From a virus: a stretch of 61,892 nucleotides of DNA. The notes under the pieces were generated by a model. That model had not been told where the DNA came from. It worked only from the letters and a program-made list of their open reading frames with translations, and made no database searches. The stretch lies in IMG/VR virus record IMGVR_UViG_3300036945_000312, positions 1 through 61,892 of that record; one strand, 5' to 3'. The position numbers were made by a program, and so were the translations under genes. Below are positions 1-61,892 of the stretch, one piece after another (position 1 is the stretch's first letter; every line of letters begins with the position of its first letter).

Positions 1-204
1 GGGTGTCGGCGTTGGCGTAGGCGTGGGCGTTGGCGTTGGCGTTGGCGTTGGCGTTGGCGTTGGCGTTGGCGTAGGTGTCGGCGTGGGCGTTGGCGTGGGC
101 GTTGGCGTGGGCGTTGGCGTTGGCGTTGGCGTTGGCGTTGGCGTTGGCGTTGGCGTTGGCGTTGGCGTTGGCGTTGGCGTTGGCGTTGGCGTAGGTGTCG
201 GCGT
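1..204 (-). repeat. GGCGTT-type hexanucleotide tandem repeat coding Thr-Pro repeats
   Basis: The first 204 bases are an imperfect tandem array of the hexamer GGCGTT, with GGCGTA, GGTGTC and GGCGTG variants. On the minus strand it is in frame with the large open frame that starts at 3699 and encodes 34 consecutive Thr-Pro dipeptides. The array runs to the first base of the window, so its true length is unknown and may be collapsed by assembly. The many plus-strand Gly-Val open frames over it are shadows. Confidence 0.9.
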
Positions 205-3200
205 TAGAGCATCTAGGTCTTTCTGGGTTACTGGATTACCATCTTCATCAATACCAATTACTGTGTCTGGTTTAGAAGTAGCGGGTACTACCGCTTTGTC
301 TGGAACTACGCCTGTTAACGCATCTAGTTCTTTTTGGGTTACTGGATTACCGTCAGCATCCGTACCCACTACAGTGTCTGGTGCAAGAACAGCAGGTACT
401 GCTGTTTTATCAACGGCTGGGGTTACACCTAGTAAGGTATTTAATTCTTGTTGTGTTACCGGATTACCATCAGCGTCTTTAAAAACAGGAACGGTACCCG
501 GTTCTGGCTGATCTACGAGATTGGATTCATTAGCAGCTTCAGATGTATCTGGAGTAGCCACAATTTCTGCTTCAGGAGCAGGAGTTAAATCTAACGCGGC
601 TTCTGTTTTTGCCTCAGTTTGAACTTGTGGTTTTAAGGCGGAAGTACCTGCAGTGGGGTAACTAACTACTTCATTAGGGGTATTTATTTGATCGGTAAGG
701 AATGTTGTATCATTAACCGCATCAGTTGCTGTACGGGTACCCACAGTCCCATTAGTGGAAGGTAACGTAGCGGGCGCAGTAGTTCCTACTATAGGCTGTT
801 CTGTTAAAGCTGACGCATCGTTAGCAGCGGTATCAATAAGCCCGGCATTTATAAGTTGAGTAATGTCAGGATCATTTGCGGCAATACCAACGTTTTGAGT
901 ACCTACCGTTCCAGCATTGGAAGTATCTATAGCAGGAGTAGTTGCCCCTGAGGGAGTAGTTGCCCCTGAGGGAGTAGTTGCCCCTGAGGGAGTAGTTGCC
1001 CCTGAGGGAGTAGTTGCCCCTGAGGGAGTGGTAACTATTGATGCAGCCTCAGGAGTTCCGCTTGAATGCGAGGCGGCGGTTAATAGGCCAGACCCCATAG
1101 CAGCTTGCACTGCTGACGCCCCTGCACCTGTTTCTAAGGGCTTATCGGTTGCGTAATTTACGGCAGTATTACTAGCTAGCTCATCTAAAGTCTCCCTAAT
1201 AACCTCTGAAGTAACAGCGGCAGGTAGGCTACCCGCTGGGAGGGTTAGTTGAGTAATCTGTGCCCGCTTCCACGAATCGGGCATTGGTAATAAGTTAATA
1301 GCAGCAGAAGCTACTGCTGCTGGAACACCTGCGACCCGTCCTGCGCGTATTGCTTTTTCATAGGCTTGCTCTGGGGGGTACCCATCTTCCATTGCACTTT
1401 TAGCTACTTCTTCATATGCTTGTTGTCCTGCAACACCACCAGTAGCTACAGAATTGAAAAGATTACCCGCCAAATAAGCGGTAGGTAGTGAAAACTCAGC
1501 AGCAAGTAGCGGTGCGGATACCGCTATAGAGGGTAGCGAGCTTCCTGCAGCCCGAAATACCGCCCCCATTAAATGAGCAGGATTCTCGTAATATTGCTTG
1601 AATTGTTCATATGCGGCAGACCCCTGCCCTTGTTTTTCGGCTTCTTTTATAGCCGCCTGCATCGTATTTTCTACTTGTTTATACCCTTCAGAGGTAAGCG
1701 TATCAAAGTTTTTAAGCACACTACCTAAGTACTGCGATACCATATCATCGGGTTTTCCTATAGCCAACCCATAGGCATCTTGGATACCTTTAGTAATTGC
1801 AACTGCCCCAGCCCCTGTCTGGAGAGCTACGTCTTTCATTGTGGTAAGCGTACGTAGAAAGTCATCTGCAGTTCCAAAGGATATGGTTCCCGCAGGGGTG
1901 TTATAGGCAGTAGTAAGAGTGCCTTTACCGGCCATGATATCGGCAAGGGACCCGCTTCCAGCCGTACTTGCTGGAGTAGTACTTGGGTACGTAGTCCCTT
2001 GGGTTGTCGTTATGGGTAGTCCTGCCTGCGTACCTGCACGACTGGGATCATAGGCCCCTAGTACCTGTTGAGGTACTTCGTTCGCGTAGTCGGTAGTGTA
2101 TGTTTGCTTTATCCCTGTAGCGGGGTTAGTCCACGGAAATGTTTTGCCGGGGCCAAGGTCTCTACGTGCGGCGGCAAAGGCTTCATCACGGGTAGCGTAA
2201 AAGTCATAGGGGTTTGTAGCGGGCGCGGTGGTTGTGGATGCTGCAGGGGCTAGAGTTCCTAAATCCGTACCAGTAGCGGAGCCGGGGATAATAGCGCCGC
2301 CAACCGTAACATCTGGGGTAGTCTCCGTTAAGCCTGCGTTTTGCAATCCTGTAATGGTATCGGTAGCGGTTCCTCCTACCGCAGTATCTTCGCCCATTGC
2401 AGCCCGTACGTCCGCATCAGTTGGGCCCCCCTCGTAGGTTCCAGTTCCGGCTCCGGCAACCGCTTTCTCCATATCGGTACGCATATCCGCACCACTAATG
2501 GCTGCTTTACCCGCTGCAAGGGCCTCATTTAATATTGCAGGGCCTAAGGGTTTACCCCGCAGAGTTGCGTATGCTGCCGCACTAGCAACACGTTGCGCCG
2601 CTTCTGGGAGGTCTGCAAAACCGGGAATTTCATTTAGAACTGTAGGTAGTGCTGAATGTATAGTACCGCCAACAAACCCTGCAAACGGGTCTGTACCTTT
2701 AAGCAATGCCCCCACCGCTCCTTTTGCTCCGCTAGTTAGCGCAGATGTTACTCCCTCGGGTAAACCCGTAGCGCCTAGGCTTGTTGGTAGTCCTGCGGCA
2801 CCCGCAACATCTTTTACAGACCCTACCGCTTCAGAAATAGCTTTTTCTATGGCTGGGGTAGCAAAGTTTAGGCCCGCAGTCATGCCCATAGATAGAAGGG
2901 TTGACTTTACGTCGCCTCCGTTAGCAAGAGTTTGCGCTATGCCTTGAGTCAAATACCCTGCGGCGCTTGCCGGTATCCCTGCGGATACTAAGCCTGCCGT
3001 TAAATCGGCTCCAAGAGGCCCGCCTAGCATCATCCCGCCGACTTGCATCAAAAAGTTACGGTCCCCGGCAAGTGGGTTAACCCATGTCCAATCCTGAATG
3101 CTTCGGGGGACGAGCTTATCACCCTGCCTAACGTACTCTATTGTTTTTTGGGCGTTGGAGTCTGGGGTACCCATAAGGGCGGACATGTCCCCACTAATAG

Positions 3201-3699
3201 TCCAGTAGTCCTCTGGGTTTACTACCTCTGGCGTTGTAGTCCATTCCCCACTTTCACCCCCAGAGTAGGAAGTAGTTTCAGGAGTAGTTCCGGCAGGGTG
3301 AAAGGTAATACCTCCAGACGCTCCGCTAGGATTCCAAATCTGGCCCCCACCTAACGTGAGCCCTCCAAAATCGGGGCGGCTTTCTAAGTTCCAGTTATAG
3401 GCCCCAGTGCTAGTATCTATACCCGCCTGCCCCAGCTTACTCATAAGCTCGTTGTAGTCAAGCTCAAACCCCGTACGTGGGGTAGCGGTAGAAGCCGCAG
3501 TTACAGGAGCCGCAGTTACAGGAGCCGCAGTTACAGGAGCCGCAGTTACAGGAGCCGTAGCAACGGCAGGGGCCATAATGGCCCCTAGGGTTTGGTCTCC
3601 TTGGGGAGTCTCGTTAAGGCCTGCATTTTGCAATTGCCCAAACAAGGGGTCAACGGTATAGTCACTGTCGTCTGCAGCGGGGTCAATAAACGATGCCAT
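1..3699 (-). CDS. Large virion-associated (ejection-type) protein, 3' end outside window
   Basis: I walked this frame from the ATG at 3699 (preceded by AAAAGG, nine bases upstream) to base 1 and found no stop, giving at least 1233 residues. The N-terminal half is rich in Ala and Gly with hydrophobic stretches, as in phage internal or ejection proteins. A unit like LQNAGLxET occurs near residue 22, again near codons at 2330, and as a related LINAGL unit near 860. Further along are four PVTAA, five TTPSGA and three DxDGNPVTQxxLxxL repeats, then 34 Thr-Pro pairs. It follows the 3711-4568 gene with a short gap, so it belongs to the late operon. No enzyme motif was recognised. It probably continues at 61891 if the genome is circular. 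Its role in the virion is inferred from context only. Confidence 0.8.
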   Translation of the reverse strand, partial: MASFIDPAADDSDYTVDPLFGQLQNAGLNETPQGDQTLGAIMAPAVATAPVTAAPVTAAPVTAAPVTAASTATPRTGFELDYNELMSKLGQAGIDTSTGAYNWNLESRPDFGGLTLGGGQIWNPSGASGGITFHPAGTTPETTSYSGGESGEWTTTPEVVNPEDYWTISGDMSALMGTPDSNAQKTIEYVRQGDKLVPRSIQDWTWVNPLAGDRNFLMQVGGMMLGGPLGADLTAGLVSAGIPASAAGYLTQGIAQTLANGGDVKSTLLSMGMTAGLNFATPAIEKAISEAVGSVKDVAGAAGLPTSLGATGLPEGVTSALTSGAKGAVGALLKGTDPFAGFVGGTIHSALPTVLNEIPGFADLPEAAQRVASAAAYATLRGKPLGPAILNEALAAGKAAISGADMRTDMEKAVAGAGTGTYEGGPTDADVRAAMGEDTAVGGTATDTITGLQNAGLTETTPDVTVGGAIIPGSATGTDLGTLAPAASTTTAPATNPYDFYATRDEAFAAARRDLGPGKTFPWTNPATGIKQTYTTDYANEVPQQVLGAYDPSRAGTQAGLPITTTQGTTYPSTTPASTAGSGSLADIMAGKGTLTTAYNTPAGTISFGTADDFLRTLTTMKDVALQTGAGAVAITKGIQDAYGLAIGKPDDMVSQYLGSVLKNFDTLTSEGYKQVENTMQAAIKEAEKQGQGSAAYEQFKQYYENPAHLMGAVFRAAGSSLPSIAVSAPLLAAEFSLPTAYLAGNLFNSVATGGVAGQQAYEEVAKSAMEDGYPPEQAYEKAIRAGRVAGVPAAVASAAINLLPMPDSWKRAQITQLTLPAGSLPAAVTSEVIRETLDELASNTAVNYATDKPLETGAGASAVQAAMGSGLLTAASHSSGTPEAASIVTTPSGATTPSGATTPSGATTPSGATTPSGATTPAIDTSNAGTVGTQNVGIAANDPDITQLINAGLIDTAANDASALTEQPIVGTTAPATLPSTNGTVGTRTATDAVNDTTFLTDQINTPNEVVSYPTAGTSALKPQVQTEAKTEAALDLTPAPEAEIVATPDTSEAANESNLVDQPEPGTVPVFKDADGNPVTQQELNTLLGVTPAVDKTAVPAVLAPDTVVGTDADGNPVTQKELDALTGVVPDKAVVPATSKPDTVIGIDEDGNPVTQKDLDALTPTPTPTPTPTPTPTPTPTPTPTPTPTPTPTPTPTPTPTPTPTPTPTPTPTPTPTPTPTPTPTPTPTP
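937..1032 (-). repeat. Five copies of an 18-bp repeat coding TTPSGA
   Basis: The unit TGCCCCTGAGGGAGTAGT occurs at 943, 961, 979, 997 and 1015, the last copy with one base changed. On the minus strand it encodes TTPSGA five times within the large open frame. The near-identity at the nucleotide level points to recent repeat expansion by slippage. Confidence 0.9.
3493..3552 (-). repeat. Four copies of a 15-bp repeat coding PVTAA
   Basis: AGCCGCAGTTACAGG is repeated four times without change. It encodes a Pro-Val-Thr-Ala-Ala linker near the N-terminus of the large minus-strand protein. Confidence 0.9.
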
Positions 3700-3710
3700 G
3701 CTAAGACCTT

Positions 3711-4568
3711 TTATATTGTTGCAGAGACGTATGACAACGTAACTACTGCGGAAGCTGTTGAGGGGCGCACTGGGGCTGTAGTCGCGGGATATGCAGGAAT
3801 CGTAACATCCACATTATCTACGGACCACCAGAGTTCTACGAATTCACCCGCTTCTAATTTTACAAAATAGTTCCACCCGGTAATACCGCCGCCATTGATA
3901 GCCCCGTGTTTGGGAGGAACTGTTACAGACCCACGAGACCCCGGGATATCAACACCGGGTCCGGGCCCATCTTGGCGAAGCCACAGGTCTAAGTCATAAG
4001 CTTGAGCAGATACATTTTTAGTCTGTACGCTAAACTGCAAGTTGTAGATGCCGCCATAGGTCACCACAAGCCTAGATGTTATAGAGCCAGTAATGGTAGT
4101 GCTGGCTACCGTAGCAGAAGTACTAACCGTATAGGTTCCTGTACCCCCAGTGCCGCCTAAGAAGGCAATGATTTTGGTACCCGGAACTACGCCTGTACCA
4201 GTTAGAGTCATGCCAAGATAGATAAGATCAACCGATACCGCTGTGACCGTAAGGGTTGTTAGTGTTTGCGAAGCGGTCATTATGGCTACATGGGACCCTA
4301 ATGCCACTTCGTTTGCGTAGTCTAGCGTATCAAAAGTCAACACTTGAGCGGTATTAGCGGGAGCCGTTTGCGTAACAGTAGACTGAAACGCCCCATAAGG
4401 ATGCTGTAAAAACCGGCCCCCAGTACCCCCAAGTACCTCTGATAACGCAGCGTCTAACTGATTAAAGTAGATACGCAGGATGTTGTTCTGCGACCTGAAC
4501 GGGTCCTGATCGTAGAGCGCCGGGGGAAGCTGAAGTGCCGGGGCTTTGGGTTTAAGCAGTAATGGCAT
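3711..4568 (-). CDS. Virion structural protein, tail or fibre type (285 aa)
   Basis: The protein has an N-terminal segment (residues 1-75) that looks like an attachment region. A central insertion (about 90-165) is rich in Gly, Thr and Val and carries the [10 protein letters not shown] and GGTGTYTVS motifs seen in many phage fibre and baseplate-like proteins. The C-terminal beta-rich part is WLRQDGPG...VPPKHG...[12 protein letters not shown]. It lies directly downstream of the 712-residue tail protein with two bases between them, and so is co-translated with it. The function is inferred from composition and position. The exact role (fibre, plug or capsid-bound) is unknown. Confidence 0.65.
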
Positions 4569-4570
4569 GG

Positions 4571-6709
4571 CTATCTCCGACCATCAGGCCGCGCATCGAA
4601 ACGAACAGACCCTAGCTGCCATGCGGTACCAATTTTGTTAGAAGACGCTTTTAGAATCATCTGCCGCCCACGAAGCCGGGTGTAAATCTGCCCGGTAAAT
4701 CCTTCAGTCACAGTGTACTCCGCACCTGTCAACTGACTAACAGACTGCGATACCAGCGGGCCCGTACCGGAACCCGAGTTCTTCATAGCGTACAAACCCA
4801 ACGTTACTTCGGCAGTCGTGCCTTCAGTAGACCCAGCAAACGACAAGTCCGGCAGCATACGGTAGACGAACATGAAGTGATCGCCATCGTCAATATCAAA
4901 CTCGGAAGAGGAGATATACGCATTGATTGGCATCGTAACCGCAGTCTCGTTATCGTCTACACCAAATTCATGGTTGACAATATTTTGGCTGTACGTGGCT
5001 GCAATAGGGTAGTTAATAAGCCCTGAATCCAGCCATGCAGTGCGGCCTATCGTACCGTAGTACCAGACCTTTTCTATGTAGTTGTAGATAACGTAGTTGC
5101 TAATAGCGGTGCTATCTTTGGCGCAGTAGAACCACCAGACTTCATTAAAGCCCTCATTGGTACCCGCAAAGACTTGGTAGTTCTGGGCCAGATTAATGTC
5201 TTGGTACACAAACTTCCGCAGATCACAGTCAAGCGTCCGCACAGTACCATCGTACATGTAGAACTTGTCAATACCCATCCAGTACACAACACCTGATGCC
5301 AACGCTGTGGCATTAGGCCCCATGAGGGAAATATTGTCCCCCACCAACTGTGTTTGCCACACTACAGGGGGCCCTACATACTGAAACGCATAGAGCGAGG
5401 AGTCCGTCCATACAAGGATTTCCTGCCGCGCCTGCAAGCAAGATACGATCCGGGACCCGTGAGATAGGCGAATACTTCCCGCCTGATTAGTGGCTGACGG
5501 AGCCCATTCAGTTACGGATTCTTGGTCCGACCATCGGACTACCATCGGGTCTTGCACCGTAGCGCCGTATTCATTAGCGCCCAAAGCAAAGACGAATCGA
5601 CTGGTATCCGAGATAAAAATAGCGTTCTGAACGACTGGAACACTGGAAGCCCCACCCAGTGCAGTAACTGCAATGCCCCTATTAGAGAGGATATGATCCC
5701 CTGATTGAGTCCCTGAGGTAGTTATAGCCGCGCCCCCGTATGTAGCCGACAGGTTACATGTAGTCACTCCCCCGACAGTTGCGGTGTTTATGACGTAGTA
5801 CACGACATAGGTTAGCAGGCCAGTAGGCAGGGCCCCTGTGGTCTCCAATGTGACCGCAGTACCGTTAAGCAGCAGGGGGCCCGTGGCAAAAGTTAGTACC
5901 GCAGACGCCCCGATAGTCACCGTAAAGGTAGCAGTACCCAGCCCTGCGCTTGCGTTCCAATAGTAAATCCCGCCATTAGAAGGCCCGAATACCAGACTCT
6001 CACCGAAGTTATTCTGTGTCCAGAGTTGCAGGGGAGTTCCAACAACGGCTCCTGTACCCCAACCCCCAGACCCCCAGCCGCCGCCACCCCAGCCCGTAAA
6101 CGGACTTTGAATCTCTAGGCCAGTATTAACTTGATAGGCCGCAACGACTGCTGCGCCACCACCCGGAGACCCCAACGCATCAGTTCCATTAGCCGTAGCT
6201 ACGGCTGTAAACGTATACAGATTGGCAGTGACTACATTGACTTGATGCTCACTATTAAGCACAGATGCAGTAATATTTCCGCCAAGCCCCACGGCTCCGC
6301 TAAAGGTCACAAAATCGTTAGAGTTGCAGCCATGCGCCGCATCGTAGACCGTGATAGTAGTTGATCCGGTTGTTGCTGTGAACGGGTTACCCGTACCAGT
6401 AAGCCCTAGCATAGGCCGCACAACTTTGCGAATAGGCGTCACATCATAGTAGACACCCCCCTTGTTAATGTAGAACTTTAAGTGCGTACCCACCCCTATA
6501 AGGGTTAACCCTGTTAAGGTAACCCATGCCCATAGAGAACGGCAAACGCCTAGGAACGTATCGACTGAATACCTAGCCCATCCCCCAAGCTTCTCAGGAG
6601 TGCCTTTACGGAACCGAACCTTATCGCTTTCGTACCACTTACCTTCGGAGGTGTATCGGGTATTTTCGCGGGTAACCCCACTCTGGATACCAATTTTCTT
6701 TATGGGCAT
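4571..6709 (-). CDS. Tail protein, packaged-DNA stabilisation (P22 gp10)-like or tail-tubular type (712 aa)
   Basis: The start ([19 protein letters not shown], then [18 protein letters not shown]) is the typical opening of a large podoviral tail protein that states a fixed offset and scale for a beta-propeller-like body. Repeated W-rich strands follow (residues 200-600). Two Gly/Thr-rich insertions near 110-180 and 250-350 resemble domains found in fibre proteins. It overlaps the lysozyme stop by about ten bases. Similarity to P22 gp10 or to tail tubular protein B is a judgement from the N-terminus and size, not an alignment. A tail-hub role below the adaptors is the most likely job. Confidence 0.6.
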
Positions 6710-21898: not shown

Positions 21899-22315
21899 TT
21901 AGGGACGTTGAATACCGCGAGGGTCTTGAACTACTGCTTCTACAGAATCATCGTTAATGATCCGCCATTCGGTATCGTGAATCTTCATACGAGTACCTGT
22001 ATTAGGGCGTACAAGAATAAAATCACCAACAGCGCAAGAAGGTCCTGAAGGAAACCGTTTTTCATCTTTGAAGGCATCGGGGCCAATTTTTGCTACGAAC
22101 AATACCGGAGATAACAACTCCTCATGGCGCTGTGCTTGGCTAGATTTCAAAATCCCACCGTCATACTCTTCCTTAGCCTCAGGGAGCATACAGAGAATAT
22201 GATACGTAACCGGATCAGGAATCTGTTTGGCTTTGGCTTCGCTAGTCCCCGCCAAAATAGATACGGGCCCCCTAGGGTCTGCCGTATGACTAATTAGGAA
22301 TTCATTCGTCTTCAT
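21899..22315 (-). CDS. GroES-like co-chaperonin (138 aa)
   Basis: ATG 22315 has GGAG upstream and gives MKTNEFLISHTADPRGPVS. The pattern SPVLFVAKIGPDAFKDEKRF, PSGPSCAVGDFILVRP, NTGTRMKIHDTEWRIINDD and VEAVVQDP matches the Cpn10 fold, including a mobile-loop-like insert (EEYDGGILKSSQAQ). In the host, GroES caps GroEL. Phage versions such as T4 gp31 help to fold the capsid protein. Its position among head genes fits that role. Confidence 0.7.
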   Translation of the reverse strand: MKTNEFLISHTADPRGPVSILAGTSEAKAKQIPDPVTYHILCMLPEAKEEYDGGILKSSQAQRHEELLSPVLFVAKIGPDAFKDEKRFPSGPSCAVGDFILVRPNTGTRMKIHDTEWRIINDDSVEAVVQDPRGIQRP

Positions 22316-22493
22316 ATCGCTCCAGTTTCTTACGCAGGTCTTGTAGATCAGTGAGTGCAAGGCCAAGACCGTAGATAACCCCGCACATTCTTTGGTACTC
22401 CCCAAAGTCTTTACAACTCCCTTTTGAGAGGGAGTCTGCCATGTAGTCCACATGGGCTTTAAATTTCTTATCGAGAACTTCTAGTTCGGTCAT
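22302..22493 (-). CDS. Small conserved phage protein (63 aa)
   Basis: The sequence reads MTELEVLDKKFKAHVDYMAD then KGSCKDFGEYQRMCGVIYGL, ending in a charged helix. I recognise this unnamed family from T7-like phages, where it lies near the head genes. It overlaps the glycosyltransferase stop with ATGA and precedes the GroES-like start by overlap. It has two Cys and one helical bundle at most. Function unknown. Confidence 0.75.
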   Translation of the reverse strand: MTELEVLDKKFKAHVDYMADSLSKGSCKDFGEYQRMCGVIYGLGLALTDLQDLRKKLERYEDE

Positions 22494-23224
22494 AGGGGCT
22501 CCATAGTGATATGGTTAATCTTATGCCCCGCAGCCCATATTCTTATATGATTGCATACAACACGTTCTGTACAGGTCCCACAAGACTTAACATGTCCTAA
22601 CTTTTGAGCATTATTGGGATGGGATCGGTGTGCATATAGAACTTTAGGTAAATGTGCAGTAGGGAATTTGTCTGCTATCTGTGCAAAAATGTCGGAATCT
22701 TCACACGCGCTAACTAGCTTATCGTTATACCCCTCTATATAGTCCATCACATTGCGACGAAACATACAAAAATGACGATGTGCGTATGTATAGGATTGCG
22801 ACTGGTCAAAAGAGCGTTCTGAAGCATAGTTCATAAACACTCCTTTTTCATCAATGTGTAAACGATCAGAGTACAACATTGATACTTTAGTCCGCTCAAA
22901 CTCCCGCAACATTTCCTCTATAGCCCAACGTTCTAACAAATCATCTTGATCGAAATGCGCTACATAGTCTCCTGTAGATGCCTCGTAAGTTCGTTTACGA
23001 TTTTTAGGAATACCTAAGGTTGTGCTATTACGAAACACTTTTATTCGTGTATCGTACTCTGCAAAATTAAGCGCAGTACCCCATGTAGTGTCCGTAGAGC
23101 AATCATCTACGATAACAAGTTCCCAGTTTTTATGGGTTTGGGCTTGTACGCTTTCTATAGCAAGAGCTAAATACGCGCCTGCATTGTAAGTAGGCATTAG
23201 TAACGAGACTAAATCCAAACTCAT
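22490..23224 (-). CDS. Family 2 glycosyltransferase (244 aa)
   Basis: The N-terminal nucleotide-sugar fold shows LVSLLMPTYNAGAYLALAI, then LVIVDDCSTD near residues 36-45. The metal-binding DQDD motif is at residues 92-95, and AHLPKVLYAHRSHPNNAQKL is at the acceptor end. It probably transfers a sugar from a nucleotide donor to a phage protein, or to a host surface polymer. It lies between a 2OG oxygenase gene (ATGA overlap) and the GroES-like gene. The combination suggests hydroxylation and then glycosylation of a virion protein, which is inference. Confidence 0.88.
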   Translation of the reverse strand: MSLDLVSLLMPTYNAGAYLALAIESVQAQTHKNWELVIVDDCSTDTTWGTALNFAEYDTRIKVFRNSTTLGIPKNRKRTYEASTGDYVAHFDQDDLLERWAIEEMLREFERTKVSMLYSDRLHIDEKGVFMNYASERSFDQSQSYTYAHRHFCMFRRNVMDYIEGYNDKLVSACEDSDIFAQIADKFPTAHLPKVLYAHRSHPNNAQKLGHVKSCGTCTERVVCNHIRIWAAGHKINHITMEPL

Positions 23225-23763
23225 TTTGTATATCTCCCAAATACTTGTATAGTGGTTCTAGGTTGAGCATCAGGGGTAGTACTAAATACTGAATGCTCTA
23301 AAGGAGTATGAATACGAACGGCATTGTTGAATTCAGGTTTAATACACTTTATTTCAGAAGCTACTTTGTATGCAAAATATCCGCCCCAATCAATATCCCA
23401 TTCAGGATTACAGTAAATAGTCATTGCAAAATCCCAAGCATGGTCCGCGTGCCACGGTATATAACTCCCCGGCATCCATTTATAGTACATTGCATATAGG
23501 TACTCAAATTTGGCTAAATCAGGAGCTAAAGTACGTACCGCAGTAAATATCTCTTGCATTAACTCGTCTGATAAATCGTACACAAGTACAGCGTTACTAC
23601 ACTTAACGATACCTTCATTCCAGCAGGAATGATTAGACCTACAACTGGTTTGCGATTTTGCAAAGGTCTCAATACGCTGAATCAATGCAAGGGGAAGCAT
23701 ATTTTTGTATACCATTATTCCTTGTGGAGCGGGGATAGGAGTAGGAATAGGAGTCGTGTTCAT
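23221..23763 (-). CDS. 2-oxoglutarate/Fe(II) oxygenase, second copy (180 aa)
   Basis: The start at ATG 23763 follows directly on the upstream TAA and lies ahead of a Pro-rich N-terminal stretch. Iron-ligand motifs are visible: HxD in WHADHAWDF (H105 and D107), distal H157 in PLEHSVFST, and an R169 that should bind 2-oxoglutarate in RTTIQVFGRY. The fold is shared with prolyl hydroxylases and other 2OG enzymes. The upstream gene is a second oxygenase of a different subfamily. The substrate is unknown. Confidence 0.85.
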   Translation of the reverse strand: MNTTPIPTPIPAPQGIMVYKNMLPLALIQRIETFAKSQTSCRSNHSCWNEGIVKCSNAVLVYDLSDELMQEIFTAVRTLAPDLAKFEYLYAMYYKWMPGSYIPWHADHAWDFAMTIYCNPEWDIDWGGYFAYKVASEIKCIKPEFNNAVRIHTPLEHSVFSTTPDAQPRTTIQVFGRYTK

Positions 23764-23765
23764 AA

Positions 23766-24644
23766 TTAAACGCTCTGGGTCCGTATCCATTTAGTAGCCA
23801 CCCATTTCTCCCCGGCTATTACCGGATTTCCCCCGTGTAGGGTACTAATATCAGTATCGTCGGGGTAGCTAAAAAATACCGCATTACCTGCTACGGGTTG
23901 AATGTCTAGTCCTAAATTTGGGAATGTAGTCGCCCCACCTGCGTCTGGGGTGTTCAAGTACATCAACAAAGTTCCAACCCGAGGACCCCCGGGCCGGGTA
24001 GCTTTAGCCTCGTCTATAAAATAGTCATAGTGCGGTAGATACTGCTGGCCTACATCATACTTAAGTACTTGCAGCCCCTCCCCATGAGTAACTGGAAAGT
24101 TAAGCACCTTAGAAATTCTGTCCTCGATACGGGTAACGGTATCATTCTCAGCACGATGAAAAAAGGTTCCGTGGCTAGTTCGGCTATTAGAAAGCTCACT
24201 AGCTCCTGTATCAAGCGCCATACCCATAGAAGGTGTTAGCTTAGGTGTAGATAAAGCTATTAAGGTAGCACATTCTGTAGGACTTAAAAAGTTTGAGAAC
24301 AATACAATATTAGGAGTTTTAAATATAGCCTGTATCGTAAATTGATGCCCCTCAATAATAAATGTACTTTTACTATCGGCTTTAATGCTAGGAATAGGGT
24401 TTACCGCAGAACCTACCTGCGCTTTCAGTGCGTCTATTTGAGCTTTAGCGTCATTATATTTTTGGGTCATGCGCTCTAAGGCTGTATACCCGGGAAGCTT
24501 TTTAATACGATCTAGTAGCTCTTGAACTTCTACAGCGTCCATACCCGCCTGAAGCATTTGCGCTTTAATAACCTCTGCGGGTACCCCTAGGGCTGTATTT
24601 TCCGCAGCCCAACTAGCCCATTCAATATTTAGTGAAGTTCCCAT
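23766..24644 (-). CDS. Prolyl 4-hydroxylase-like 2OG/Fe(II) oxygenase (292 aa)
   Basis: An N-terminal helical part (1-80) with a probable coiled coil precedes the catalytic domain (about 105-290). The HxD of LPHYDYF (H205 and D207), the distal H270 in STLHGGNP and K280 in EKWVATKW are in the correct order for a prolyl-4-hydroxylase type enzyme. It would hydroxylate Pro or a similar residue with O2, 2-oxoglutarate and iron. Its neighbours are portal, oxygenase and glycosyltransferase, so a virion or host protein is the likely target. Proline-rich tracts elsewhere in the virion block make them plausible substrates, an inference. Confidence 0.92.
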   Translation of the reverse strand: MGTSLNIEWASWAAENTALGVPAEVIKAQMLQAGMDAVEVQELLDRIKKLPGYTALERMTQKYNDAKAQIDALKAQVGSAVNPIPSIKADSKSTFIIEGHQFTIQAIFKTPNIVLFSNFLSPTECATLIALSTPKLTPSMGMALDTGASELSNSRTSHGTFFHRAENDTVTRIEDRISKVLNFPVTHGEGLQVLKYDVGQQYLPHYDYFIDEAKATRPGGPRVGTLLMYLNTPDAGGATTFPNLGLDIQPVAGNAVFFSYPDDTDISTLHGGNPVIAGEKWVATKWIRTQSV

Positions 24645-27143
24645 TTAGTATCTCCTAAGTTTCTGTGCCGCTTGTTGTGCGGCTAGCTGCTGCTTGAGTT
24701 GGTTCGCCTGCACTGCTGCAGCCATCTTCTGCTGCTGGACCTGCTGTGCGTGTGTAAGCTGTTGCTGGTGGGCTTGCTGGCCCTGCTGAAGCTCCTGCAT
24801 GTGCCGCTGCTGTGCCAAGGCCGGGTCTTCGCCGCGCTTGCTAGCCATCTCCTGCGTCTTAAGCTGCAACTCGGCCTGCTTGATCTGCAGGTCCCCCTGA
24901 ATCTTCTGGCCCTTAAGCTCAACCTCTTTGCCTTTAAGCTGCAACTCGGCTTGCTGAAGCTGCATCATCGGGTCTTGCGCCATCTGCTGATTCTGGGCTT
25001 GCTGGGCTTGGGACATATTCAACTGCAGCAACTGCGTAGCGGCTTGCGCGGTCAGGCGGGCTAGCTGAACTTCTACGTCCTCAGGCAAGTCCGAGTCTGG
25101 TGCAGGCATCAGGACGCCCATCTGCTCCTCGATCTTGCGGCGATACGCAAAGGCCAAATGCTCAGAAATATGCGCCATCGTCGCAGCCATCATCTGCTGC
25201 GCCATCGGATTCTGACCCATTGTCTGCCCGATCATCGGGTCTTTCATAAACGTTGTGTGTACAGCGATGTGAGCATCGTGATCTTGGTAAATAAACGCCT
25301 TAACGGGTTTGCCATTAAGGAACGCCATGTTCTCGCTAATCGGATCGCGGGGCTTCAGGTCATCGTCAATCGGAACCAATTTCTCTGCGTTCTTGATACC
25401 CAACACCTCAAGCATCTGGCGGTGCAACTGGGGCAAGTCGTAAATCTGCGGGGCTCCCTGCGCCAACTGGATTGCAGCTTGGTACTGCATGATCCGCTGG
25501 GCCATTGTGGTGCTGTTGGGATCGCTGACCGGGATAACCTCCACCAGTGAGTAGTCGCTGCGCTTGGCCTTACGGTCGCCTTTAGCGGGGTCATACTCGT
25601 AGTCGTCCGGAGCGTTGTCTCCAATGATCGCAGCTAGAAGCTTGAACTCCTGCTTCATGGACGCATGGACCCGGGCCTGCACAGCACTCATGGTCTTCAG
25701 CGTACGCTCCAGCAACGCCAGCGTAGTGCCCACAGGCGCATTACCCGACATGTCGGCAATCTTCATGTCACTGATAGCCCCCAGTCGGCGGGCCTCATCG
25801 GTAATCTGGTTCAGCAGCGCCAACAGCGTTTGGCTAGGCTCCTTGTACGGCAGGGGCATGATGTTGTCCCGGACTGTCCCGGAAGCGACATCTACGTCCC
25901 GGAACTCGCCCGGAGCGATGGGAGTGTCATCTCCCTTGATACGCAAGCCACGCGCCTTCAAGCCACCCGGCAGATTAGCTAGTGAGCCCGCATCAATCAA
26001 CTGACGAATCAGCGAGGTACCCGCCCGGGCGTAGCCGCCAATCAGGTTAATCAATCCAAAGCCATAGGCACCGAAGCCGGGGATATACGTGTACTGTACG
26101 AAGTGTTGCCGCTTCTGCTTGGTTACGTCATCCTCTTCCCAGTTCCTGCGGATAGCCAGCACGTTGCTAGTGCCGCGCTCAATAGTGACCACATACGGCA
26201 GGGCAATCCCATCGTCATCCTCGTACCCGGGCATATCCCAGTCAACGTGAATTTCCAGCAACTGAAACCGGTCATCGTCAGTGACGCTGTAGCCCTGCTC
26301 TTCAGCCTTTTTCTTCTCAACGTCCGTAGTGATGTGAACCGGATCGCCAAGGTCCACCTCACGATAAAACCCAGCTACCTGCAGCTTGCGAACCTCGTTC
26401 TCCGTCTTACGCATGACATGGGTAACCCGCTCTGCAGTCTGCGAACTAGACGCGCCATACGGGATGATGACATCTTCAGCAGGGACAAACAGCGACACTT
26501 GCCTACGCATCGACGGGTCGTAATACACCTTCTTGAACGCAGAACCGGACAATCCAAGGTTAAACAACATGCGCTCATGCTCTGGCCGATACTCAGGCAT
26601 CTTCTCCAGAATCTGATAATTCATGTCCTCCTGCACTCGCGCAGCGGCCTCTTCGGTATCTTTCGTAGCCGCCCCCACGATGGAAGTCCGCACTGGACCC
26701 GCAGCAGGGAACGTCTCTGTCGCCATCTCGGCCTGAAACCGAATCGCAGCTTCAGTCAGCACTGTGGAATATACGCCACAAGCCCCACTCCAAGGCTCTG
26801 TACGTTCGTCGTACTTCATGCCCAAGACCTCAAGGCCCTTCACATACGCATCAACCCAGTCCTTGCGGGAGTTAATGTCGGCATCCACCAAGGCTAGCAG
26901 GTCACCCGCAAGCTCAGTCAACTCGCCCTCATCCATGAATTCTGCAAGGTTGTCGCCAAAATCCTCACCTTGAGTGGGCTCAGGAATCAGCGTAATTTCC
27001 ACGCTACCATCGGCCAGCGTGACCCGATCCGGGTTTTCAATCTCGATCTCCAGATCAGGCTCTGTATTCGCAACAACATCCGTAATAGAGTCGAGCCCCA
27101 GCGGTGCAGGGTTCAGGGAAGAGAACATGTTTGAGGTAGCCAT
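24645..27143 (-). CDS. Portal protein, P22-type (832 aa)
   Basis: The core signatures are GACGVYSTVLTEAAIRFQAE, FNLGLSGSAFKKVYYDPSMR and VPAEDVIIPYGASS, as in large portal proteins of podoviruses of the P22 type. It forms the dodecameric ring for DNA entry and exit. The last about 140 residues are Gln- and Ala-rich helices, a likely long coiled-coil barrel like that of P22. Placement after the terminase is standard. The acidic first 100 residues are rich in DNE. Confidence 0.92.
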   Translation of the reverse strand: MATSNMFSSLNPAPLGLDSITDVVANTEPDLEIEIENPDRVTLADGSVEITLIPEPTQGEDFGDNLAEFMDEGELTELAGDLLALVDADINSRKDWVDAYVKGLEVLGMKYDERTEPWSGACGVYSTVLTEAAIRFQAEMATETFPAAGPVRTSIVGAATKDTEEAAARVQEDMNYQILEKMPEYRPEHERMLFNLGLSGSAFKKVYYDPSMRRQVSLFVPAEDVIIPYGASSSQTAERVTHVMRKTENEVRKLQVAGFYREVDLGDPVHITTDVEKKKAEEQGYSVTDDDRFQLLEIHVDWDMPGYEDDDGIALPYVVTIERGTSNVLAIRRNWEEDDVTKQKRQHFVQYTYIPGFGAYGFGLINLIGGYARAGTSLIRQLIDAGSLANLPGGLKARGLRIKGDDTPIAPGEFRDVDVASGTVRDNIMPLPYKEPSQTLLALLNQITDEARRLGAISDMKIADMSGNAPVGTTLALLERTLKTMSAVQARVHASMKQEFKLLAAIIGDNAPDDYEYDPAKGDRKAKRSDYSLVEVIPVSDPNSTTMAQRIMQYQAAIQLAQGAPQIYDLPQLHRQMLEVLGIKNAEKLVPIDDDLKPRDPISENMAFLNGKPVKAFIYQDHDAHIAVHTTFMKDPMIGQTMGQNPMAQQMMAATMAHISEHLAFAYRRKIEEQMGVLMPAPDSDLPEDVEVQLARLTAQAATQLLQLNMSQAQQAQNQQMAQDPMMQLQQAELQLKGKEVELKGQKIQGDLQIKQAELQLKTQEMASKRGEDPALAQQRHMQELQQGQQAHQQQLTHAQQVQQQKMAAAVQANQLKQQLAAQQAAQKLRRY

Positions 27144-36897: not shown

Positions 36898-37307
36898 CAA
36901 CCGCATGGGCACACTTGCCTAACGCCGCGCACATCGACCGGGTACTGGCCTCACTGAAGGCTAACCCGAAGGTATGGGTCGCTGCTCGGACCGCTGCTTG
37001 GGGCGCTGCTCGGGGCGCTGCTCGGGACGCTGTTTGGGACGCTGCTCGGGACGCTGCTCGGGACGCTGCTCGGACCGCTGCTTGGGACGCTGCTTGGGGC
37101 GCTGCTTGGGACGCTGCTCGGGGCGCTGCTCGGGACGCTGCTTGGGGCGCTATAGCTGCGCTCATAGCATGGGACGACTGCGGGGGGTTCTTGGATATGC
37201 CACCCGATGCCGTTCGGCTAGTTGCCGCTGTTGGGAACCACTCTGCCATTCTGGTGCTACCCGCAGCTATCGTATTCAGTAAGTCATCTGTAAGTTTCGC
37301 CAACTAA
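36894..37307 (+). CDS. Alanine-rich tandem repeat protein (137 aa)
   Basis: Residues 30-85 are 14 tetrapeptide units of the type AARD, AAWD, AARG and AAWG, predicted as a long amphipathic helix with Arg/Asp and Trp faces. The N- and C-terminal parts are unique, with a hydrophobic end. It overlaps the upstream gene (ATGA), and its own TAA stop lies within the palindrome at 37302. Similar Ala-repeat proteins occur in other phages, without a known role. Confidence 0.65.
   Translation: MTTAWAHLPNAAHIDRVLASLKANPKVWVAARTAAWGAARGAARDAVWDAARDAARDAARTAAWDAAWGAAWDAARGAARDAAWGAIAALIAWDDCGGFLDMPPDAVRLVAAVGNHSAILVLPAAIVFSKSSVSFAN
36981..37148 (+). repeat. Fourteen 12-bp repeats coding AARD/AAWD units
   Basis: GCTGCTCGGGAC and close variants (with TTGG or GGGC) are repeated in frame about 14 times. 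The low divergence shows slippage or recombination in this gene. Confidence 0.85.
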
Positions 37308-61453: not shown

Positions 61454-61891
<438 letters not shown>

Positions 61892-61892
61892 T

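Follow-up and report, generated by a model that had tools for sequence, protein, structure and literature searches.

The window considered here is the whole of IMG/VR virus record IMGVR_UViG_3300036945_000312 (61,892 bases), from a freshwater bacterial virus, in which three minus-strand open reading frames (ORFs) encode a prolyl 4-hydroxylase (P4H)-like 2-oxoglutarate (2OG)/Fe(II) oxygenase, a second 2OG/Fe(II) oxygenase (OXY2), and a family 2 glycosyltransferase (GT2). These genes may constitute a cassette for the modification of a virion protein, lodged in an exchangeable slot behind the portal gene and acting on a repetitive tract of a tail-block protein, a reading to which we assign a probability of about 0.52. 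The order on the minus strand was portal, P4H, OXY2, GT2, and a gene of 63 amino acids (aa; g63), with overlaps of 25 nucleotides (nt) between P4H and OXY2, 4 nt between OXY2 and GT2, and 4 nt between GT2 and g63. The P4H ORF began one base past the portal stop, leaving no gap. The three-gene block is not a chance arrangement. The original prediction, which had described two adjacent oxygenases and a family 2 glycosyltransferase with overlaps in the head block, was correct in the genes, their positions, and their surroundings, which comprised terminase, portal, GroES-like, and capsid genes (Table 1).

As judged from its sequence, the first oxygenase is a true relative of the collagen-type prolyl 4-hydroxylases. 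It matched PF13640 in Pfam (1.3e-15) and, in a phmmer search of PDB, the B. anthracis P4H (3itq, 6.6e-44), a prolyl-4 hydroxylase (2jig, 1.5e-38), and a human-type P4H subunit alpha-2 (7zsc, 2.7e-25). Residues H205, D207, H270, and K280, already singled out in the earlier annotation, were all present; they correspond to an HxD...H iron triad and a 2OG-binding lysine and were invariant across 11 aligned sequences. OXY2 was a borderline member of PF13640, scoring 25.9 bits (2.1e-5), just below the cut-off, in one scan and 27.7 bits, just above it, in another, and contained H114/D116, H161 or H166, and R178, which were retained in its single close relative. The glycosyltransferase matched PF00535 (7.1e-31) and carried the acidic residues D92/D94/D95 of a D-x-D motif. 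The slot GT2 proteins also retained a C-terminal C-x2-C-x5-C motif (C215, C218, and C224), possibly a metal site. No match to g63 was found in Pfam or PHROG. A promoter and terminator scan, with fewer promoter-like sites than in shuffled sequences, was uninformative.

Table 1. Coordinates of the cassette, the borders of the slot, and the tail-block genes in the window.
Feature	Position	Strand	Basis
P4H-like 2OG/Fe(II) oxygenase, 292 aa; N-terminal domain of ~75 aa and P4H catalytic domain	23766..24644	-	Pfam, PDB phmmer, residues
Second 2OG/Fe(II) oxygenase (OXY2), 189 aa	23221..23790	-	PF13640 borderline; H114/D116/H161 or H166/R178
GT2 glycosyltransferase, 244 aa; conserved C-terminal Cys motif	22490..23224	-	PF00535
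Portal protein, upstream border of slot	24645..27143	-	PHROG portal 6e-26; border in relatives
Conserved 63-aa gene (g63), downstream border of slot	22302..22493	-	Border in relatives
GroES-like protein, conserved next gene	21899..22453	-	PHROG GroES 2.3e-8; sub-threshold Pfam Cpn10 match, 5e-4
Candidate substrate, N-terminal part (at least 1233 aa) of tail-block protein, running off contig start	1..3699	-	Weak homologues in G010, G014, G028, G030
34 Thr-Pro pairs inside candidate-substrate ORF	1..204	-	Contig end
Tail-fibre-like protein immediately upstream of tract gene	3711..4568	-	PHROG tail fiber 5.5e-12
Virion structural protein ('tail712' anchor), upstream of tract gene	4571..6709	-	PHROG virion structural protein 5e-61
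Conserved C-terminal domain (104 aa), same kind of tail-block protein	61454..61768	-	Homology to C-termini of G001, G015, G017, G019, G023, G025, G034
41 consecutive prolines, opposite contig end	61769..61891	-	10/41 codons not CCA

The junction behind the portal is a slot with swappable oxygenase and glycosyltransferase modules. With the portal as query, 80 related-phage loci (L numbers) were fetched without regard to slot content, and the junction from portal to g63/GroES was readable in 74 and unreadable in 6. The slot was empty in 63 of the 74 readable loci and filled in 11 (two of these only partly visible), and all 11 filled slots contained oxygenase and/or glycosyltransferase genes. These were GT2 (L029, L051, L060, and L065), a JmjC/Cupin_8 protein with a 280-aa protein (the near-copies L063, L064, and L071-L073), PF11397 (L081), and a 2OG-like protein with a Pfam match under the cut-off, named by its homology to the N-terminal half of L008 (L095). 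Because several are near-copies, the filled slots do not represent 11 independent events. Searches with the slot enzymes as queries added further combinations, including P4H, GT2, or PF11397 as the sole enzyme and a 2OG-P4H fusion that was accompanied by a GT-like gene in some loci but not in others. The most telling locus, L189, contained a portal, a P4H (51% identical to that of the window over its length), and OXY2 (56%), followed by a PF11397 transferase (9.6e-44) in place of GT2. We take PF11397 to be the family of the Skp1 hydroxyproline GlcNAc-transferase; such a gene lay beside P4H in L189, and the transferase of the window belonged to PF00535 instead. G084 combined OXY2 with GT60 (PF11397-type) and had no P4H. 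OXY2 as the only query retrieved no relative among viral contigs; its relatives came via L189 and G084.

Several loci had other features of note. The GroES-like gene adjoined the slot in relatives and in the named phages Pag-Yong1, HTVC023P, HTVC027P, and DSL-LC04. In L011 and L094, the portal was split into two ORFs, maybe by sequencing error. L191 (5998-7635) encoded a 545-aa protein with a PF11397-like transferase and a methyltransferase-like domain (PHROG matches), and in L224 (3049-8696) and L250 (5643-11491), P4H was accompanied by TPR proteins and by GT-like genes, which in L224 included GT60, apparently in an early region.

At each of its ends, the contig ran into proline repeats encoded on one and the same strand, within what appears to be one kind of tail-block protein. 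The two ends would join one base out of frame; therefore, sequence is missing or wrong there, and the two ORFs were kept apart. All codon variation in the poly-Pro and Thr-Pro tracts was synonymous, which points to selection at the protein level, and no collagen-like GXY repeats of note were found in the window. Among the seven records with homologues of the C-terminal domain, most had a repeat tract right before it. The contigs of G001, G031, and G034, like the window at positions 1-205 and 61768-61892, break off in Pro-coding repeats, so that the assembly of these phages seems to break down at such tracts. The enzyme-free record G014 (L291) contained long (NPNV)n repeats at 2-4753, in an ORF weakly homologous to the tract gene of the window. 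Elsewhere in the window, a 12/48-nt tandem array was located at 36976-37151.

The proline content of the virus records (G numbers), all of which may be fragments, followed the presence of P4H. The hypothesis was formed on a first batch of 27 other records and the window, and a second batch was used as a test. Among its new P4H records, long tracts were present in G032, G054, and G035, the tract of G031 was truncated where its contig stops, and G037, G038, G051, and G053, which are partial and devoid of tail anchors, had no tract; new records without P4H scored at most 5. As a measure, we used the maximum number of prolines per 100 aa in the best stretch of any ORF of a record (Pro100), which was not always in the tail gene (e.g., G040). 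Among the records with tail anchors, this value was 30-54 with P4H (n = 9) vs. 12-35 without (n = 23; p = 3e-5), and the difference persisted with one record per lineage (7 vs. 18; p = 4e-4) and with 17 added records lacking P4H (9 vs. 40; p = 2e-5). Values of at least 43 were reached by 7/9 records with P4H vs. 2/40 without. By hand-entered values, P4H records exceeded GT-only records (p = 0.002), which in turn exceeded records with no enzyme (p = 0.001). The location of P4H varied: some genomes had it in the slot, and in G028, G032, and G036 it lay outside the slot, on the strand opposite the tail genes. This variation, set against a tract that remains in one and the same tail gene, speaks against simple hitch-hiking. 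Mean guanine-cytosine (GC) content was 0.493 with P4H and 0.506 without; it did not differ in the needed direction and does not explain the link. Codons within the tracts of the records were mixed. When presence of P4H was mapped onto a tail-protein tree of 29 records, five changes were required, at least three of them by well-supported branches.

A second comparison concerned glycosyltransferases and the composition of the tract preceding the C-terminal domain. An alignment search with this domain fetched 80 loci, 30 of them on shorter contigs, and the 50 records of at least 25 kb were searched. Of these, 24 with a readable portal junction were classed, 25 lacked a portal match, and G095 was dropped because its slot lay beyond the contig. 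The classed records comprised 2 with P4H (G001 and G034), 13 with a glycosyltransferase and no P4H, and 9 with no detected enzyme; G015, G017, G019, G023, G025, and both P4H records were shared with the first set. The fraction of Ser, Thr, and Pro in up to 200 residues preceding the domain reached the threshold of 0.5 in 13/13 glycosyltransferase records vs. 2/9 enzyme-free records (Fisher 2e-4), the latter not all independent because the tracts of G064 and G066 are identical. Like the Fisher test and the 9 vs. 40 comparison of proline content, a Mann-Whitney test on 12 vs. 9 of these records, prior to the addition of G072, used hand-entered values; it gave 0.004; the slot gene of G072, at first unrecognized, encoded a PF00535 protein, and its tract was Thr/Pro-rich. 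Enzyme-free tracts were mostly A/K/D/E repeats, such as (ADTK)n in G015 and G075, and that of G097 was nearly free of proline. The tract of G001, with P4H only, was (APAPAPDK)n with Ser/Thr almost absent, and that of G034, with P4H and the 280-aa protein, consisted of Thr-Pro-Glu repeats. Close relatives on the tail tree differed accordingly, G015 having an empty slot and ADTK repeats and G017/G019 having GT2 and Ser/Thr-Pro repeats. The original prediction had pointed to proline-rich virion tracts as possible substrates; such tracts exist and their composition follows the enzymes, which points to the tail protein as the candidate substrate.

The slot oxygenases may also converge on one target. 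A profile built from the N-terminal 80 residues of the P4Hs of the window and L189 matched the JmjC slot proteins (1.3e-9 to 6e-7 among 19,383 ORFs) and an OXY2 fusion in G084 (6e-20 among 21,903 ORFs). By these matches, the three classes of slot oxygenase (P4H, JmjC, and OXY2) share a non-catalytic N-terminal domain, which could dock them onto a common target. Of 560 confirmed relatives of P4H in one-per-species genomes, the best 80 were kept, and nearly all of these came from betaproteobacteria/Burkholderiales (e.g., Rubrivivax, Roseateles, Sphaerotilus, and Ideonella), and the host of the phage is presumably a freshwater member of Burkholderiales. These host P4Hs aligned over most of their length, and four ORFs in the 80 host loci reached E 0.01 with the N-terminal profile; therefore, the domain is not confined to viruses. 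The 280-aa partner (GTx280) had no convincing family match and no sequence match in PDB. Its predicted model was of middling quality (pLDDT 73.8, pTM 0.78) and resembled GT-A glycosyltransferases, including LgtC (2e-4 in Foldseek, with modest TM-scores of mostly 0.4-0.5) and glycogenin (VIA Z 12.6, the highest, with an rmsd of 3.6 over 194 residues); GTx280 is thus predicted to be a GT-A glycosyltransferase by fold. A 233-aa GT9-like slot protein had no match in PHROG or PDB, a single unrelated-looking Pfam match below the cut-off, and an unusable model (pLDDT 37.6); the label GT-like thus depends solely on its appearance and on another phage protein with a weak match to GT9 (0.0017).

These results suggest a sequence of events for the window. 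The cassette would be made together with the late structural proteins, and P4H would hydroxylate the long tail-block protein at prolines of its (Thr-Pro)n and poly-Pro tract. OXY2 would hydroxylate another site on this or a nearby protein, and GT2 would add a sugar to the new hydroxyl and/or to Thr/Ser of the tract. That the slot enzymes modify the tail tract seems probable; that they do so via glycosylated hydroxyproline (Hyp) is possible, at somewhat less than even odds. The data suggest, short of proof, that hydroxyproline-linked or similar sugars are attached by the virus to its own tail. The original prediction of proline hydroxylation followed by sugar transfer on a virion protein is partly supported by the enzymes, the slot content, the pairing in L189, and the co-variation with the tract, with hydroxyproline and the sugar as predicted products and with some exceptions.

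These exceptions and several other points weigh against the proposed cassette. G058, with (SP)n, and G092, both with GT2, were very Pro-rich and G093 had 37 prolines, all with no detected P4H, on partial contigs of 39-44 kb. In view of these three exceptions, which the C-domain set added, the claim on proline tracts was narrowed, and the view that long tracts are nearly exclusive to P4H records was dropped. G094 (58 kb), whose slot was empty and which lacked matches to PF00535, PF13640, and GT60, was Thr/Pro-rich. The 9 vs. 40 comparison given above includes these four records. The closest relative, G056 (portal 91-96% in two pieces), had a short T/P/K tract despite its empty slot; therefore, a tract can exist without the enzymes and may lengthen once they arrive. 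G030 contained P4H yet had just 30 prolines per 100 aa, and no slot-type glycosyltransferase or PF00535 protein was detected in the P4H records G028, G032, G054, and G001. Glycosyltransferases frequently occupied the slot without an oxygenase, and GT2 was similar to the polysaccharide-building enzymes chondroitin synthase and TuaG. Furthermore, the tract gene is known in the window as two partial ORFs with no complete copy, the cut-offs were partly set after the first batch had been seen, the tests are partly post hoc, and the lineages, some of them near-copies, are not fully independent.

The enzymes might instead be directed at the host, the oxygenases acting on host proteins or on the 2-oxoglutarate balance and GT2 altering surface glycans (serotype conversion or superinfection exclusion). 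PHROG placed GT2 nearest to GtrB-like O-antigen conversion (1.6e-11) and P4H among morons and auxiliary metabolic genes, and freshwater betaproteobacteria have full-length P4H homologues. As to an O-antigen conversion operon, neither a GtrA flippase nor a serotype enzyme was identified among 10 block proteins scanned against Pfam, without membrane-segment prediction. In the literature, a Pseudomonas P4H acts on EF-Tu (PMC4543633), and cyanophage 2OG oxygenases, of which one phage encodes 24 with functions not investigated, are commonly interpreted as a means to reprogram host metabolism (PMC9602691). However, the genes are tightly inserted, with overlaps, in the head operon, the slot admitted only the oxygenase/glycosyltransferase class in the portal-sampled set, and the tail tract follows the enzymes. 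Furthermore, homologues of the slot glycosyltransferases, OXY2, or JmjC were found in 0/80 of the best host P4H loci within the fetched flanks at 1e-4. We regard a host-directed role as unlikely. Slightly less likely still is that the glycosyltransferase acts directly on Ser/Thr while the oxygenases do other work, such as a sugar-free 4-hydroxylation that stiffens polyproline helices. This would suit the Ser/Thr-Pro tracts of GT-only records, the P4H records without a detected slot glycosyltransferase, and the nearly Ser/Thr-free tract of G001, but not the union of oxygenases and glycosyltransferase in one cassette in L189 and the window.

It is improbable that the junction is simply a tolerated insertion point and the link between enzymes and tract a phylogenetic or compositional coincidence. 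G093, G094, G058, and G092, the S/T/P-rich tracts in 2/9 enzyme-free records, and the near-copy lineages are in keeping with coincidence, whereas the GC content, the mixed tract codons with synonymous-only changes in the window, the five changes of P4H on the tail tree, and the matching differences in slot and repeats between G015 and G017/G019 are not. Pairs of oxygenases and glycosyltransferases that act on phage DNA are known, and some PHROG neighbors were labeled 'DNA endonuclease', a label that we take to be carried over. DNA hypermodification, in which the oxygenases oxidize a base methyl group and GT2 glucosylates it, is nevertheless highly improbable: the window oxygenases matched only PF13640 and PF13661 at E up to 0.1 and no TET/JBP model, the best solved relatives of the first were prolyl 4-hydroxylases, and the slot lies in a structural operon.

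The proposed modification of the tail protein has partial parallels in known systems. In the Skp1 pathway of Dictyostelium and Toxoplasma, the prolyl hydroxylase PhyA is followed by the GlcNAc-transferase Gnt1 (PMC9485057), much as P4H is paired with PF11397 in L189; however, that pathway modifies a single proline of a ubiquitin-ligase subunit for O2 sensing in eukaryotes, whereas here a phage, long repeat tracts, and, in the window, a GT2 are involved. In plant extensins and arabinogalactan-proteins, prolines in X-Pro-X-Pro (X = Ser, Thr, or Ala) are often hydroxylated and glycosylated and contiguous Hyp is arabinosylated (PMC6523594), motifs that resemble the phage tracts. The plant reactions take place in the secretory pathway, and the likeness is one of motifs. 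Mimivirus L230 is also a virus-coded hydroxylase and glycosyltransferase for a repetitive viral protein, collagen (PMC9614988), but it is bifunctional, acts on lysine in collagen-like repeats, and belongs to a giant virus of amoebae, whereas the window has separate genes and proline. Mycobacteriophages bear glycans on capsid and tail-tube proteins (cited in PMC12619734), with no oxygenase step mentioned in the excerpt. The window P4H shares sequence and active-site residues with the B. anthracis enzyme, but bacterial P4Hs are host enzymes, and the substrate of Pseudomonas PPHD is EF-Tu (PMC4543633). P4H is also listed in a lake virome (PMC9611531). In the literature searched, with most subscription journals outside its coverage, hydroxyproline or Hyp-glycans on phage virions were not described.

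Tentatively, and at odds appreciably short of even, these phages may represent a virus family with an exchangeable slot whose enzymes furnish a repetitive tail protein with glycans of the plant arabinogalactan-protein or mucin type, in some members via prolyl hydroxylation and Hyp glycosylation. The shared N-terminal domain would dock P4H, JmjC, and OXY2 on one target, and the repeats would evolve with the enzyme present. Hydroxyproline-linked sugars are, to our knowledge, a eukaryotic trait, and phage-coded Hyp glycosylation, if true, would extend them to bacterial viruses.

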